Shown piece by piece: positions 41,934 through 49,595 of a stretch of DNA of 64,000 nucleotides. Below the pieces are notes generated by a model, which was not told where the DNA came from, ran no database searches, and worked only from the letters and a program-made list of their open reading frames with translations. The first letter of the stretch is position 1. Each line of letters opens with the position of its first letter. The translations under genes and the position numbers were made by a program. The stretch comes from Maricaulis parjimensis (GTDB taxonomy: Bacteria > Pseudomonadota > Alphaproteobacteria > Caulobacterales > Maricaulaceae), in NCBI RefSeq assembly GCF_016817355.1, contig NZ_JADOTT010000001.1:1-64000 (forward strand), in the 5' to 3' direction.

Positions 41934-44873
41934 ATGACGAAGAAGCAGAACCTTCGCCAAACGAGCGCCGCACTGGCACTGACAGCCGCACTGCTGCCGG
42001 TGACAGGCTTGAGCGCCGCGCAGGCTCAGGAGTCAGAGGACACGGACAATAGTTCCGGCGTCTTCATTCTGCCCTTCCATGGTGACATCAATCCCTTCTT
42101 CCATGGTGATATCGATCCGTTCCACGGCGACATCTCGCCCTTCCATGGCGACATCAATCCGTTCCACGGCGACATCAATCCTTTCTACGGCGATATCAGC
42201 CCGTTCTGGGGTGACATCAATCCCTTCTGGGGCGACATCAACCCGTTCCACGGCGATATCAGCCCCTTCCATGGCGACATCAATCCCTTCTGGGGGGATA
42301 TCGAAGCCTTCCACGGCGATATCGAAGCCTTCCATGGCGACATTAATCCCTTCTGGGGCGATATCGCGCCCTTCTGGGGTGATATCGGTCCGTTCTGGGG
42401 TGATATCAGCGCCTTCTGGGGCGATATCGACGCCTTCAGCGAAAGCTCGGCTGGCGATTACGGCTCGCTGGCGGACCAGCTCAATTCCATGTTTGCCCAG
42501 GCCGAGGCCGTGTTCGGGTCCGCCATCGAGGCGCAGACCGGCTCCAGCTTCCGCGATGCCTTCCTGGCTGACCTGCTGGCCAAATACGGTTTCGACCCGT
42601 CGGATCCGGAAAGCCTGGACGGTGTCAGCGCCGAAGACCGCTCGCGCTTCTTCCTGGACTTCTATGACGGCCTGATGGGCTATACCGGGATCGACCATGT
42701 CGACCACTGGATGCCTGCCATCAATTGGAGCCCGGCCCTGTCGCAATCCGTCGGCGGTGGCGATGGCACGGTTGTCGGCCTGCTCGACTTCTCCTTCGAC
42801 GCATCCGAACTGCTCACCGTGCGCACCCAGCGCGGCGATACCAGCTGGATGAATTTCAATCACGGTGCCGCCGTGGCCAGCCTGATCGCCGCGCCGATGG
42901 ACGGCCAGGGCGTGATGGGCCTGGCGCCGGAGAGCACGCTGATCAGCTATAATCCGTTTGATGAAACGCTGACCTCGAACTGGAATGATGTCCGCGAAGG
43001 CGTCCTGGCCCTGGTTCACCAGAATGCCAGCGTCATCAACATGTCCCTGGGTGTGCCCGGCTGGACCTTCCACCAGGATTGGGCTGACATCCTGTCCGAT
43101 CGCAGCATCCGCCGCCAGGCGGGTGACACACTCTTCGTTTTTGCCGCCGGCAATGATGGCGTCACGCAGACGCGAAACGTCGATTGGAGCAGTGTCTGGA
43201 ATGCCTCCAACCTGCTGATCGTCGGCTCCGTCGATCCGAACGGCCGCATCTCGCGCTTCTCCAACACACCGGGCACGGCCTGCCTGACGATCTACGGGCA
43301 ATGCTATCGCGGCAATCGCCTGATGGACCGCTTCCTGGTGGCACCGGGTGAGCTGATCCTGGTCTCTGATGGTGAGGGCGGCGTGACACGCCTGTCCGGC
43401 ACGTCCTTTGCCGCGCCTCTGGTGACCGGGGCTGCCGCCCTGGTGCAGGGACGCTGGGAATGGCTGAAAGCCCATAATGTGGCCGATGTCCTGTTGCGCT
43501 CGGCCACGGACCTGGGGGCCGAAGGCGTCGACGAAGTCTATGGCTGGGGTCTGCTGAACGTCGATGCGGCCCTGCGCCCGCTGGATGGCAGCAATCTCTA
43601 TGTCGTCGATTCCCGTGGCCGCCTGCGCAATATCAATCGTCTCGGCGTTTCCGCCGGTCGTCTGCAAGTGCACGCCCAGGACGCCACCATCACCCTGTAC
43701 GAGCCACTGGGCTGGACCTATCGCGACTTCCAGGTCTCCTATAATGAGCTGATGGCCAGCTCGGATCTGAGCGAGAGCCAGAAAGCAGCGATCACGGAGA
43801 TCTATCTGGCCGAGCGCGCCCGCTCCGGCGAAGCCGGATTCGCCGATACGGTGGAAACCGGCCGCCTGGTCGACCGTTCGGGCAATCTGACGGTCACGGC
43901 CTTCGCTTCGGCGGCTGACCCGTATCAGCGCCTGTCCAATCAGGACCTGCCCTTCCAGGCCGGTCTGGAGATTGCCGACACGGCCTCCGGTCGCAGCCTG
44001 CGCCTGGGCATGGGTGAAGGCGCGCTGGCGCTGAACCGCCAGTCCGGCTTCCAGCTCTTCTCCGATCACCGCCCGGAAACCGGCGGCGTCAATCCGGTCC
44101 TCGGCTTTGCCTCGGGCGGTGCCTACATGCTGTCCAGCTGGCATGTGGCCGGCGCGACCCGGATGACGGTCGGCTTCAGCTCGACCGACGAGGCCCATGA
44201 TTTCGTCAACCCGTTCACGGGTGAGGAACAGGCCATCCAGGGCGGACTGCCGTCCTACCAGGCCGCCGCCATGGTCGCGGATCTGAACCACACCCTGTCC
44301 GACAGCCTGTCGGTCAACATCACCTATACCCATCTGGAAGAGCAGACCGGCTTCCTGGGCGCCCAGGCGCCGGGCGCCATCGGCTTCGAGGGCGGCGCGA
44401 ATACGGATGCCGTCAGCGTCGGTGCTGAAGCGGATCTGTCCGGATATGTCCAGCTGTCGGCCTCGGCCACGCTGGCCCGCACGGCCTCAACCGAGTTCAG
44501 CGACAGCGTCCTGAGCCTGAGCGAGGACGCTCTGTCCACCGCCTTCCAGGTCACGGCCCTGCGCCGCGGCGTGTTTGCCGAAGGCGATGCGGTTCGCCTG
44601 TCCGTGGTGCAGCCCCTGCACCTGGAAGACGGCACGCTGACCTATATGGCCGGCGAGATCAGCGACCGCAGCACGGGTGCCATCTCGACGCAGACCCAGG
44701 AATGGGCGCTGGGTGGAGAACGGGCCGTCTATACCGAGCTTCTCTACGCCTTGCCGCTGTTCAGCGAACGGGCCGACCTGTCCGTCTTTGGTCGCGCCAG
44801 CCTGAACGGCAATACCGGCCCCGAAAGCGAAACCTCAATGGCGAGCGGTCTGCGCTTCGACCTTCGCTTCTAA
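41934..44873 (+). CDS. S8 (subtilisin-like) serine protease with heptapeptide-repeat N-terminus and outer-membrane barrel
   Basis: A 979-residue secreted protein. A signal peptide (residues 1-31, ending AQAQE) is followed at residues 47-166 by 17 tandem heptads of the form P/A-F-H/W/Y-G-D-I-x. After a linker comes a subtilase domain with catalytic Asp285 (VVGLLDFSFD), His310 (NFNHGAAVAS), oxyanion Asn407 (FAAGNDG) and Ser491 (SGTSFAAPLVTGAAAL). Residues from about 580 on look like an autotransporter-type barrel ending in LRFDLRF. The protease thus appears cell-surface or self-releasing. The repeat array is discussed as a finding. ATG 41934 follows AGGGAGTTGGGGAC. A terminator follows at 44898. 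Confidence 0.9.
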   Translation: MTKKQNLRQTSAALALTAALLPVTGLSAAQAQESEDTDNSSGVFILPFHGDINPFFHGDIDPFHGDISPFHGDINPFHGDINPFYGDISPFWGDINPFWGDINPFHGDISPFHGDINPFWGDIEAFHGDIEAFHGDINPFWGDIAPFWGDIGPFWGDISAFWGDIDAFSESSAGDYGSLADQLNSMFAQAEAVFGSAIEAQTGSSFRDAFLADLLAKYGFDPSDPESLDGVSAEDRSRFFLDFYDGLMGYTGIDHVDHWMPAINWSPALSQSVGGGDGTVVGLLDFSFDASELLTVRTQRGDTSWMNFNHGAAVASLIAAPMDGQGVMGLAPESTLISYNPFDETLTSNWNDVREGVLALVHQNASVINMSLGVPGWTFHQDWADILSDRSIRRQAGDTLFVFAAGNDGVTQTRNVDWSSVWNASNLLIVGSVDPNGRISRFSNTPGTACLTIYGQCYRGNRLMDRFLVAPGELILVSDGEGGVTRLSGTSFAAPLVTGAAALVQGRWEWLKAHNVADVLLRSATDLGAEGVDEVYGWGLLNVDAALRPLDGSNLYVVDSRGRLRNINRLGVSAGRLQVHAQDATITLYEPLGWTYRDFQVSYNELMASSDLSESQKAAITEIYLAERARSGEAGFADTVETGRLVDRSGNLTVTAFASAADPYQRLSNQDLPFQAGLEIADTASGRSLRLGMGEGALALNRQSGFQLFSDHRPETGGVNPVLGFASGGAYMLSSWHVAGATRMTVGFSSTDEAHDFVNPFTGEEQAIQGGLPSYQAAAMVADLNHTLSDSLSVNITYTHLEEQTGFLGAQAPGAIGFEGGANTDAVSVGAEADLSGYVQLSASATLARTASTEFSDSVLSLSEDALSTAFQVTALRRGVFAEGDAVRLSVVQPLHLEDGTLTYMAGEISDRSTGAISTQTQEWALGGERAVYTELLYALPLFSERADLSVFGRASLNGNTGPESETSMASGLRFDLRF
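42072..42431 (+). repeat. Tandem 21-bp repeat encoding 17 aromatic heptapeptides
   Basis: 360 bases encode residues 47-166 as 17 units. Position 1 is P or A, position 2 always F, position 3 H, W or Y, and positions 4-6 always GDI. Position 7 varies (N, S, D, E, A or G). Unit 2 has one extra F, so the array is 17 x 7 + 1 residues. Third codon positions vary between units while GDI is invariant, which indicates selection on the protein rather than recent DNA slippage alone. Confidence 0.95.
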
Positions 44874-45045: not shown

Positions 45046-47643
45046 GTGGCCCCTTCTGTGTTCTGGCGTGTCGTATTTCTGGGCGTGAGCTTGGCGCTGT
45101 CTCCGGTTGCTGTAACAGCAGCTGCGAGCGCGCAATCGGCTACCGAAACGCCGGACACATTCTACAGCCTGATCGAAACCGCCCGGTCCTCCATGATGCG
45201 GGCGCCGCAGGACGCGCTGGATCTGGCCGATGCCGCCGAGCAGCAGCTGGAAACGGATGTTTCGCCGGCGGATCACCCCCAGGCACGCGCCACGCTGAAC
45301 TGGCTGCGGTCGGAAGCCCTGACCCGGCTGGGACGTCCCGTTGAAGCCGAGCCCTACGCTCAACAGGCCCTGCGTGACCTCGGCGACAATCCGGAAGCGA
45401 CCCAACTCTATGCCGACATTCTGGTCGCGATGGCCCGGGTCGAGCGGATCACCGGCCGCTACGGCCTCGCGCTGGAGCATTTCCAGGCGGCCTATACGGT
45501 CTATCGCCAGATCGACGCGCCGCGCAGCGAAGCCATCGTCCTGCTGTCGATCGCCTCCATCTATCGTGACGCCCACCAGTATGAGCGCGCGGTCGACTAT
45601 TTCCTCGATGCCTCCAACCGCTATGACGCGGACCCGTCGCTGGAACTGGCGGCCCACAATAATCTGGGCAATGCCTATCGCGAGATGGGTGATTTCGAGG
45701 CCGCGCTGGACCATTTCACGCAGGCCCGGAACATCGCCATCGAGCTGGACAGCGCCATGCTGGAAGCGCGGATCCTGTCCAATCTGGCGGCGCTGTATGT
45801 CGACATGGGTGATTTCACAGCCGCCGACGAGGCGCTGGATACCTCCTTCGAACAGATCGGACCGGACGGGGCCGACTGGGCCCGCTTCCTCTGGGGCGTC
45901 CGCGCGCAAGCCGCCTTTGGCCGCGGCGAGGTCTCTGCCGCGCAAGCGATGATCGGCCGCACCTTCGACGACCAGAATCTGGAAGAAACCACCCAGTCCT
46001 TCCGCGAGTTCCACGAAGCCGCCGCCGACATTTACGAAGCGGCCGGACAGACCGCTGCCGCCCTTCCCCATTTGCGGGCCTTCAAACGCCTGGATGACGA
46101 GGCACGCGCCGTCGCCGCCTCTGCCAACAATGCGCTGCTGGGCGCCCAGTTCGACTTTGCCGAACAGGAATTGCAGATCGAGCAATTGCGCTCCGAAAGC
46201 CTGCAGCAGGAACTGACCCTGGCCGACACACGCGCCCGCCAGCAGCTCTACATCGTGTTCGGCCTGTTGGGCCTGGCGGCCATCTGCCTGGTGTCGGGCG
46301 GGCTCTATTACCGTGTTCTGCGCCAGCGCAATGCCGTGCTGCGCGATGCGCTCTATCGCGACATGGAAACCGGACTGCCCACCCGTTTCGCCGCTGAAAG
46401 CCGCGTTGAAGCCCTGGATTTGACCGGCATGGATCCGGTCGTGATGGCGCTGGGCATTGACCGTTACCAGCATCTGGAAAGCGTGCTGGGCTTTGACCGC
46501 ATGGCCGAGCTGACCCGCGTCGTTGCCGACCGGCTGAAGCAGGATGAGGATGTCGACATGGCCGTCGTCCTGTCCCGCGGCGCGCTGGGCATTGTGCTGA
46601 CGCGTCCGGCGATGCGCTCGCTGGAAGAGGTCGCCCAGGAACTCCAGTCCCTGTTGGCCGAGCCGCTGCATGTGGATGATGTCACGCTGGACGTCGCCGT
46701 CACGCTGGGCGTGGCCAGTGATGAGAGCCGCAATGCCTGTACCCGGGAAGCCATGCTGGCCGTTGAACAGGCCCGCGAGGCGAACCAGTCCTTCTGCATG
46801 TTCGATGCGGGCAAACAGCAGGATCACAGCGATAATCTCACCCTGATGAGCCGCATGCTGGCCGCCACGTCGAGCGGTCACATGCAGATGCATTATCAGC
46901 CCAAACTCCACCTGAAGTCCGGGGAGTTCCGCGCCGCCGAAGCGCTCGTGCGCTGGAATGATCCCGAGCGGGGTTTCATCCCGCCGGATGCCTTCATCGG
47001 ACTGGCCGAGGAAACCGGGCGGATCCGCGAATTCACTGAATGGTCGCTGGACCGCGTCGTGACGGACCAGAAGAGTCTGATGGCCCGGGGTCAGGACATC
47101 CAGATCTCGATCAATATTTCCGGCGCCCTGATTTCCGATCCGGACTTTGGCCGCATCGCCCTGGACCGGGTGGCAGCGGCGCGCGGCCGGATCTCGTTCG
47201 AGATCACCGAGACGGCTGCCATGGGCAATCCGGAACGAGCCCTGCAAACACTGCGCATGTGGCGCGATGCCGGCATCAAACTGTCGATCGATGATTACGG
47301 CACCGGCCTGTCATCCCTGGCCTATCTGCGCTCGCTGCCGGCCGAGGAATTGAAGCTGGACCGCGCCTTCGTCAGCAATATCGCCTCCTCGCAGCGTGAC
47401 CGCATGCTGGTGAAGTCCACCACAGATCTGGCCCATGCGCTGGGTCTGGAAATGACGGCGGAAGGCGTGGAAGACGAAGCCGGACTGGCCCTGCTGAAAA
47501 TGCTCGGCTGCGACTGGGCCCAAGGCTATCTGATGTCCCGCGCGCTGCCGCTGGACGCGCTGCGCCACTTCCTGGCATCGCATACGGAAGGCTGGGTCGT
47601 GACCTCGGGCAGCCAGAAGGGCCGTTTCAACTCGGTAACCTGA
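45046..47643 (+). CDS. TPR-containing GGDEF-EAL protein with degenerate GGDEF, probable c-di-GMP phosphodiesterase
   Basis: An 865-residue inner-membrane protein. A signal peptide and a periplasmic region of tetratricopeptide helices (about residues 60-330, e.g. NNLGNAYREMGDFEAALDHF) precede a coiled coil and one transmembrane helix at about 401-425. Next is a GGDEF-like domain in which the active-site motif reads SRGAL (510-514), so cyclase activity is lost. The EAL domain keeps E632-A-L, NISG, EITET, DDYGTG, KLDRAF and AEGVE. It should therefore cleave c-di-GMP, with the periplasmic TPR as sensor. The GTG start at 45046 lacks a clear ribosome-binding site; a GTG at 45058 is possible. Confidence 0.87.
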   Translation: MAPSVFWRVVFLGVSLALSPVAVTAAASAQSATETPDTFYSLIETARSSMMRAPQDALDLADAAEQQLETDVSPADHPQARATLNWLRSEALTRLGRPVEAEPYAQQALRDLGDNPEATQLYADILVAMARVERITGRYGLALEHFQAAYTVYRQIDAPRSEAIVLLSIASIYRDAHQYERAVDYFLDASNRYDADPSLELAAHNNLGNAYREMGDFEAALDHFTQARNIAIELDSAMLEARILSNLAALYVDMGDFTAADEALDTSFEQIGPDGADWARFLWGVRAQAAFGRGEVSAAQAMIGRTFDDQNLEETTQSFREFHEAAADIYEAAGQTAAALPHLRAFKRLDDEARAVAASANNALLGAQFDFAEQELQIEQLRSESLQQELTLADTRARQQLYIVFGLLGLAAICLVSGGLYYRVLRQRNAVLRDALYRDMETGLPTRFAAESRVEALDLTGMDPVVMALGIDRYQHLESVLGFDRMAELTRVVADRLKQDEDVDMAVVLSRGALGIVLTRPAMRSLEEVAQELQSLLAEPLHVDDVTLDVAVTLGVASDESRNACTREAMLAVEQAREANQSFCMFDAGKQQDHSDNLTLMSRMLAATSSGHMQMHYQPKLHLKSGEFRAAEALVRWNDPERGFIPPDAFIGLAEETGRIREFTEWSLDRVVTDQKSLMARGQDIQISINISGALISDPDFGRIALDRVAAARGRISFEITETAAMGNPERALQTLRMWRDAGIKLSIDDYGTGLSSLAYLRSLPAEELKLDRAFVSNIASSQRDRMLVKSTTDLAHALGLEMTAEGVEDEAGLALLKMLGCDWAQGYLMSRALPLDALRHFLASHTEGWVVTSGSQKGRFNSVT

Positions 47644-48101: not shown

Positions 48102-49595
48102 ATGCTCATTTCCGCCCTGCCCCGACTGTTCCGCCCGCTTGGCCTGGCCATTGTGCTGGGCGCTTGCACCCTGTCCGACAGTGCGGCCCTGCAGCCGGAA
48201 ATCCTCAACGCGAACACCCGCCATGACGGCGTGTTCGGTGGCGAGCCGGTATCATTCGACGCCCTGGTGGAACGCACATCCCTGCCGGCGAACGAACTGG
48301 CCCCAGCCGTGGACATGGTCAGCTTCGCCTATCTGCGCGTCGATGCTGCCGAACCCGCCGAACGTCCCGTCATCTTCCTGTTCAATGGCGGGCCGGGCGC
48401 CGCCTCCTCCTGGCTGCATATGGGGGCGATGGGACCGGTGCGGATCAATGCACCCCAGGACCCGGCCGCGCCGGTAGCGGATGGCCAGGCACCGCTCGCC
48501 AATATCCATTCCCTGATCGACATCGCGGACCTGGTCTTCATCGATCCGCCTGAAACCGGTTTCAGCCGCATTGCCGGTGAGGCCGATCCGGGCCGTCTCT
48601 ACACCGTGCAGGGCGATGCGGATGTCTTCGTCCGTTTCATGCAGACCTGGCTGGCCGATCACGACCGGACCGGCGCGCCCGTCTACGTGCTGGGCGAGAG
48701 CTATGGCACGATCCGCGCGGCCGCGATTGCCGGCCGCTTGGCCGATAGCGATCCGCTGGACGGCGTGATCCTGATGGGCCAGGCGGTCAACATGATCGAG
48801 ACCTCCCAGCGCCAGGGCAATGTCCTGTCCTATGCGACCAATCTGCCGACCCTGGCGGCGGTGGCGGCGTGGCATGGCCGGGCCGAGACACAGGGCCAAT
48901 CCATCCCGGACTTTGTGGATACGGTCTACGACTGGGCGATGACGGATTACCTGTCCGCCCTGATCCGCGGCAATCAGCTGAGCGAGGCAGAGCGCAATGC
49001 TGTGGCACAGCGGCTGGAGGCCTATACCGGCCTGTCGGCCGAGACCTATATGGCCAATGGGCTGATCTTCCCGAAAATGCGGTTCCTGACCGCGCTGCTG
49101 GCCGATGAAGGTCAAATGGTCGGGCTCTATGATGCGCGCTATGCGGGACCGGCACCGGGTCCGGGGCGTCCCTATCAGGACCCGTACGGACCGGTCTCTG
49201 CCCTGATCCCGGCCGCGCTGGAAGACCATCTGAGCGACACGCTGGGCGTCAGCCTGGCCTTTGACGACTATATCCCGCTGAGCCGCGCCGTTTCCGGAAA
49301 CTGGGTCTATGAACCGACCGGCGGAATGGGCGGCCCCTTCGACGATTATGACTATACCGGCATGCTGGAAGTCGCCTTTGCCGCCAATCCGGATTTCCGC
49401 CTCATGATCGGCACCGGCCGCTACGACCTGACCACAACACTGGGCCCGGCCCGCTATCTCGCGGACCAGATCCAGACCGGCGGCGGCCATGTGGAAACGC
49501 ATGAATATGAAGGGGGACACATGGCCTATACCAATCCGGACGCCCTCGAGGCCTTCTCGGACGATCTGCGCGCCTTCATCGCCGCCCCGGAGTGA
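48102..49595 (+). CDS. S10 family serine carboxypeptidase-like lipoprotein
   Basis: A 497-residue exported protein with a lipoprotein signal (LAIVLGAC, Cys22). S10 signatures are FLFNGGPGAASSWLHMGAMGP, the nucleophile GESYGT with Ser200, Asp442 (GTGRYDLTT) and His473 (EGGHMAY). Residues between 230 and 400 are the lid region. In S10 enzymes the Glu before Ser (Glu199 here) helps bind the substrate C-terminal carboxylate, so true carboxypeptidase activity is plausible. It opens the plus-strand part of the peptide island (Lrp, amidohydrolase, cyclodeaminase family). Confidence 0.88.
   Translation: MLISALPRLFRPLGLAIVLGACTLSDSAALQPEILNANTRHDGVFGGEPVSFDALVERTSLPANELAPAVDMVSFAYLRVDAAEPAERPVIFLFNGGPGAASSWLHMGAMGPVRINAPQDPAAPVADGQAPLANIHSLIDIADLVFIDPPETGFSRIAGEADPGRLYTVQGDADVFVRFMQTWLADHDRTGAPVYVLGESYGTIRAAAIAGRLADSDPLDGVILMGQAVNMIETSQRQGNVLSYATNLPTLAAVAAWHGRAETQGQSIPDFVDTVYDWAMTDYLSALIRGNQLSEAERNAVAQRLEAYTGLSAETYMANGLIFPKMRFLTALLADEGQMVGLYDARYAGPAPGPGRPYQDPYGPVSALIPAALEDHLSDTLGVSLAFDDYIPLSRAVSGNWVYEPTGGMGGPFDDYDYTGMLEVAFAANPDFRLMIGTGRYDLTTTLGPARYLADQIQTGGGHVETHEYEGGHMAYTNPDALEAFSDDLRAFIAAPE

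Follow-up and report, generated by a model that had tools for sequence, protein, structure and literature searches.

In a 64,000-nucleotide stretch of the Maricaulis parjimensis genome (contig NZ_JADOTT010000001.1, positions 1 to 64,000; hereafter the window), a subtilase gene carries an N-terminal array of seventeen aromatic heptapeptides and is followed by a gene for a TPR sensor. Array subtilase and TPR sensor form a conserved, co-inherited and near-obligate pair, and no part of the subtilase evolves more slowly than the array, which is under the strongest purifying selection. As the array is thus the most strictly conserved part and a sensor of a putatively peptide-binding type is its near-constant neighbor, these observations suggest an undescribed protease-and-sensor signaling pair and not a mere stalk. 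The features concerned are the following (window coordinates and strand):

41934..44873, +: subtilase with N-terminal heptad array, open reading frame (ORF) of 979 aa
41934..42026, +: signal peptide, residues 1-31, read from the sequence; N-terminal helix 5-19 in the AlphaFold2 model
42072..42431, +: heptad array of 17 units, residues 47-166 (TRF, translation, unit count)
42186..42239, +: ordered core YGDISPFWGDINPFWGDI, residues 85-102 (core search across arrays)
42444..42758, +: conserved, mostly helical region preceding the protease, with DHVDHWM at residues 254-260 (alignment, AlphaFold2)
42759..43577, +: S8 protease (Pfam match, alignment)
44121..44870, +: C-terminal region with twelve modeled strands of at least 10 residues (AlphaFold2), a putative barrel
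45046..47643, +: partner gene, 865 aa, with TPR region, transmembrane stretch (read from the sequence), weak GGDEF and EAL
45130..46140, +: TPR region, query of the co-occurrence search (model pLDDT 91.6 for 45130-46245)
46861..47541, +: EAL domain of the partner (domain scan)

A subtilase and a TPR sensor inherited together

The two-gene module occurs in 16 of the 54 sampled genera of one order, plus some genomes outside that order. A survey of 299 genomes of this order turned up the barrel region in 42 (50 copies) and the partner TPR region in 45 (51 copies): both were present in 42 genomes, the barrel alone in none, the TPR region alone in 3, and neither in 254. The TPR partner is thus present in 42/42 subtilase genomes versus 3/257 others (Fisher p 4e-48, which is no true probability, the genomes being related), and it lies on the same strand, downstream and within 3 kb, in 47 of the 50 subtilase copies. 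In the three exceptions, the copy is a second one (genome G128), meets a contig end (G174) or is separated from its partner by ∼600 kb (G190). As for the genomes with the TPR region only, the array of G034 ends at contig ends, the match in G099 is weak, and in G136 (locus L094, contig G136:C28) the 15 kb examined around a partner-family TPR kinase contain no array subtilase. Two genomes of the same genus as the window (G088, G188) have neither region, and no plasmid matched the barrel region.

The array profile matched 46 of the 299 genomes, the true matches being the 42 barrel genomes and G034. Rejected matches were G025 (L053) and G030 (L052), which are FecR-like proteins with GDNN repeats, and G214 (L084), which has no array ORF; G114 has one true copy and one FecR-like match (L058). 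These three false matches of the search (L052, L053, L058) are exported proteins with long GDNN-type repeat regions, which we take to be FecR-like from a reading of their sequences. Beyond the order, 6 of 372 genomes of the class and 4 of 324 of the phylum matched. The matches in G000, G012, G442 and G615 are S8 proteins of the array family, and those in G421, G479 and G753, where an array ORF of this kind is missing, appear fortuitous. Within the genomes sampled from order, class and phylum, the array was not found to be shared by many types of protein. Array-less S8 autotransporters (L069-L073) gave no TPR match, though several were examined only ∼1 to 2 kb downstream.

Each of the 18 scanned partners contains TPRs. 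Seven end in EAL, with GGDEF matched in five of these (barely so in the window), and eleven end in HisKA-HATPase, five of them with a receiver domain (one below cut-off). The window partner itself looks like a phosphodiesterase, since its GGDEF part (window 46357-46776) scores 24.3 bits against a cut-off of 23.8 and shows no GGDEF motif by eye, and its EAL domain is strong. A signal-like N-terminal stretch and a later transmembrane stretch, both read by eye, suggest that the TPR domain is periplasmic. Among bacterial solved structures, the fold of this domain is most similar to peptide-pheromone receptors. In G615, one array protein (L099) has a TPR kinase upstream, and its second copy (L100) has none in the stretch examined. 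After the partner gene of the window lies a carboxypeptidase-like ORF (window 48102-49595), presumably an S10 enzyme as judged by reading its sequence, which among the compared loci was matched only in L008.

The heptad array and its family

Residues 47-166 of the subtilase consist of 17 F[HWY]GDI units, each with two linking residues, in which F, G, D and I are identical in 17/17, and the array is detected by TRF at period 21 (score 222) and period 63 (score 329). The first-pass annotation had described seventeen contiguous units with invariant F and GDI, which agrees with the sequence except that the second unit, NPFFHGDI, bears one extra F (hence an array length of 120 = 17x7+1); its alternation of H and W is not there, as these units are grouped in blocks. 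Because the GDI codons differ (Gly GGC 11, GGT 5, GGG 1; Asp GAT 9, GAC 8) while the amino acids stay the same, the array is not a fresh DNA duplication; a neutral repeat was likewise rejected as its origin, synonymous sites having diverged with amino acids unchanged. As had been supposed, the array is no named domain: no Pfam model matched it above cut-off (nearest DUF7891, E 0.047, 14.3 bits versus 27), nor did any NCBIfam model, and the strings PFWGDI and GDINPF do not occur in the literature searched, most subscription-journal papers lying outside it. An antisense open frame of 766 residues (window 42033-44333, minus strand) runs through array and protease, with repeats that reflect those of the array because of the 21-bp period and are probably a by-product of composition.

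The identification of the protein as an S8 protease was borne out, and a C-terminal barrel is predicted. PF00082 matches above cut-off (E 4.5e-37, 128.4 bits versus 21.8), and D285, H310, N407 and S491 are invariant in a 15-row alignment; by motif, we take D285, H310 and S491 to be the S8 triad and N407 the oxyanion Asn. The barrel is predicted from the twelve strands modeled over residues 730-978 (AlphaFold2 on the 15 rows, whole-model mean pLDDT 56, pTM 0.39); no Pfam barrel model matched this region at E up to 1, and the NCBIfam autotransporter models match the subtilase below cut-off. The array does sit between signal peptide and protease, as first annotated, but does not adjoin the protease directly, ∼105 conserved and mostly helical residues (170-275) separating it from the S8 domain.

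The window protein belongs to an unnamed family, in which a heptad array follows the signal peptide and a helical region leads to the S8 protease and a predicted barrel. One scan of genome contigs yielded 16 loci from Maricaulis, Marinicaulis, Erythrobacter, Qipengyuania, Phenylobacterium and unplaced Alphaproteobacteria, and 14 of them entered an alignment together with the window protein (not included are L021 and L022, owing to a broken frame and a contig end; L013 is truncated by its contig end). The aligned relatives share a signal-like N-terminus, the array, a helical region with DHWM at its end, the S8 domain and a strand-rich C-terminal region, and Erythrobacter has an additional stretch of ∼100 or more residues ahead of the array. 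The array set comprises 73 ORFs merged to 58 distinct arrays (L033 and L051 are one protein, and the contig-end halves L085+L086 and L060+L087 were joined), among which close orthologs such as those of the window, L007 and L008 were kept; 28 loci stand outside it, being own-genome fragments, FecR-like proteins, array-less S8 proteins, chance matches or partner-only loci.

In the 58 arrays, heptads mostly follow x-G-x-[IL]-x-[PATS]-[FLW]; F and I are kept in homologs, as anticipated, and Asp and His are not conserved. The relatives carry units such as WGNLDTF, WGNLDSF, YGSLDPF, YGNLDAF, YGDIGPF, WGDIQPF, WGRINPF, YGKIAPF, YGNINAW and GGDINPF. Arrays taken in coding frame by their self-match at lag 7 alone fit x-x-x-[ILV]-x-[PATSQ]-[FLWM], except for register breaks in L044 and L074; the less regular arrays L042, L056, L075 and L079 did not reach this screen. 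The largest array has some 55 units in one protein, and irregular inserts occur in some relatives. Second subtilase copies in three genomes have long DLHIDPL, EMHLDPL or SLHIDPL arrays (L074:2589-6437, L076:2080-6135, L078:1740-5435), each adjoining its own TPR partner, and two proteins of 635 and 653 residues (L099:2978-4882, L100:2683-4641) combine array and S8 domain with a basic tail and no barrel. In L042 (G190), WGEIYAF alternates with a second, looser heptad, giving a 14-residue period, and the S8 part continues in another frame, the reading frame being broken in this assembly.

Selection on the array is strong. In comparisons of the window gene with its orthologs L007 and L008, counted by a Nei-Gojobori script, dN/dS of the array is 0.04 and 0.07 (0.02 between L007 and L008), versus 0.14-0.40 for the other parts (signal and linker, helical region, S8, linker, barrel), and H, Y and W units follow one another in the same order in all three. 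An ordered core, YGxISPFWGxIxPFWGxI, is found in 29 of the 58 arrays (once in 27, twice in 2) after 3 to 12 units, versus 5.99 expected when units are shuffled within arrays; families f1, f5 and f17 have it, as do the f9 proteins without a barrel, L099 and L100. The first-pass annotation had mentioned neither this core, nor the lineage-specific heptads, nor the sensor partnership.

It had instead proposed a folded solenoid or a metal- or glycan-binding stalk, and the strict seven-residue period across lineages would suit such a fold. Yet the AlphaFold2 model gives residues 1-142 as a single segment with pLDDT <50 and almost no secondary structure, the array being at 23-34 over residues 41-140 and its last units (144-167) forming a weak helix at 52-67; strands are almost absent. 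Disorder is thereby indicated, not proven, because the alignment is shallow. The 8-residue unit in the window and the inserts of relatives also fit a solenoid poorly. Binding through His and Asp finds no support, because relatives carry other middle triplets (GKI, GRI, GNL, GSL, GEI, GHI, GQI) and mostly no His; Asp is the consensus at its position in 38/58 arrays. We consider this reading very improbable.

Candidate roles of the array

We tentatively explain the array, with somewhat more doubt than belief, as a putative linear tandem substrate of its own protease, which the TPR sensor would read, perhaps in the form of heptapeptides set free from it. The two genes would form one envelope circuit, in which the array would serve the protease as an unfolded series of tandem sites, with I/L at P4, P3 free, P/A/S/T at P2 and F/L/W at P1. 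The best-kept letters of the heptad, [IL]-x-[PATS]-[FLW], in which x is the most variable position, fit the P4-P1 preference of subtilisin. The portion of PMC10531186 consulted holds no direct statement of subtilisin S4 specificity. After export, the protease would bind or cut the array, and the array itself, or heptapeptides like HGDINPF and WGDINPF, would be the ligand of the periplasmic TPR domain, switching its c-di-GMP (EAL) or histidine-kinase output; the cell might thereby sense protease export or activity, or the accumulation of peptides around cells. The recognition tag for a sorting system that had been envisaged survives in part, recognition being close to what the sensor suggests, while nothing points to sorting.

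The array might even be a Gram-negative polyprotein pheromone, a putative store of heptapeptides cut by the protease that carries it, with the periplasmic TPR receptor driving c-di-GMP or a phosphorelay; the lineage-specific heptads (GDINPF, GNLDTF, KIAPF, LHIDPL and others) would then be private dialects. Since the link between array and sensor rests on co-occurrence and fold, we keep the substrate-and-sensor explanation as a whole tentative and regard this pheromone version as unlikely.

Several points weigh against the substrate-and-sensor explanation. Over 37 pairs (of 38 chosen loci, which share ancestry), with array difference crudely taken as per-position composition, the array does not covary with the TPR domain beyond S8 (partial r 0.07, p 0.21), which speaks against coevolution of ligand and receptor. 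Peptides freed outside would need to return to the periplasm. The output varies by lineage between GGDEF-EAL and kinase, so no single downstream effect is implied. TPR folds are common, and human LGN outscores Rap as a fold match to the sensor. Relative entropy over 779 units of the 58 arrays is highest at heptad positions 7 (3.80 bits), 4 (3.60), 6 (3.06) and 2 (2.85), followed by 1 (2.44), 3 (2.16) and 5 (1.39), a contrast that is partly built in because the regular expression that picks units fixes residue classes at positions 2, 4, 6 and 7. Finally, shuffling the units of the window array alone yields the core in 42% of trials, and therefore only the family-wide pattern is informative.

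In the same 37 pairs, array composition does track S8 (partial r 0.33, p 0.0005), which favors a link of array and protease. This would suit a self-inhibiting fuse, in which the array lies as substrate-like strands in the active-site cleft and keeps the protease quiet until its units are digested, the TPR protein sensing something else; the array precedes the protease, its letters suit a P4-P1 site, and its composition follows S8 and not TPR. A fuse leaves unexplained, however, the tight pairing with the sensor and the up to some 55 units per protein, and the position between array and S8 is already taken by a separate helical region. We judge it a serious but less probable alternative. An adhesive or surface-display array, an aromatic-rich flexible or self-associating tail on the cell surface, with attachment under the control of the TPR sensor, would agree with export, barrel anchoring in most members and an EAL output typical of attachment control. 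But the very low dN/dS and the ordered core exceed the needs of a sticky tail, the G615 members lack the barrel, and lineages differ in charge (GDI, GRI, GKI), which makes this role quite improbable.

Relation to known systems

Taken one by one, the components are of known kinds; neither the libraries nor the literature searched contain the heptad family, its ordered core or the subtilase-sensor pairing. Like S8 autotransporter subtilases, the window protein combines a signal peptide and an S8 domain with a strand-rich C-terminal region whose last residue is F; unlike them, it has an N-terminal heptad array with a helical region, a TPR partner, and neither a Pfam barrel match nor an NCBIfam autotransporter match above cut-off. 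TPR-domain diguanylate cyclases, phosphodiesterases and histidine kinases similarly place TPRs before GGDEF-EAL or HisKA-HATPase, but here the partner is tied by co-occurrence to one protease family. Yeast alpha-factor is a tandem peptide precursor cut by Kex2 in trans at spacer sites, and resembles the array in its near-identical units repeated within one exported precursor; here, in contrast, unit and protease are on one chain and most arrays have no spacer. The partner TPR domain is similar in fold to those of RRNPP systems (Rap-Phr, NprR-NprX, PlcR-PapR), where short peptides also come from exported precursors, and the title of one study names subtilisin, Epr and Vpr as CSF-producing enzymes (Lanigan-Gerdes 2007, cited in PMC3601965). 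Unlike in RRNPP systems, the TPR domain here is predicted to be periplasmic and is fused to an EAL or kinase output, and the putative peptide lies in tandem inside the protease.

We thus describe an unnamed heptad-repeat family whose letters drift by lineage while the period and an I-x-P-F-like core persist. If the array is the ligand of the sensor, it would represent a logic of peptide signaling that, to our knowledge, has been described in no Gram-negative bacterium, and one that is directly testable.
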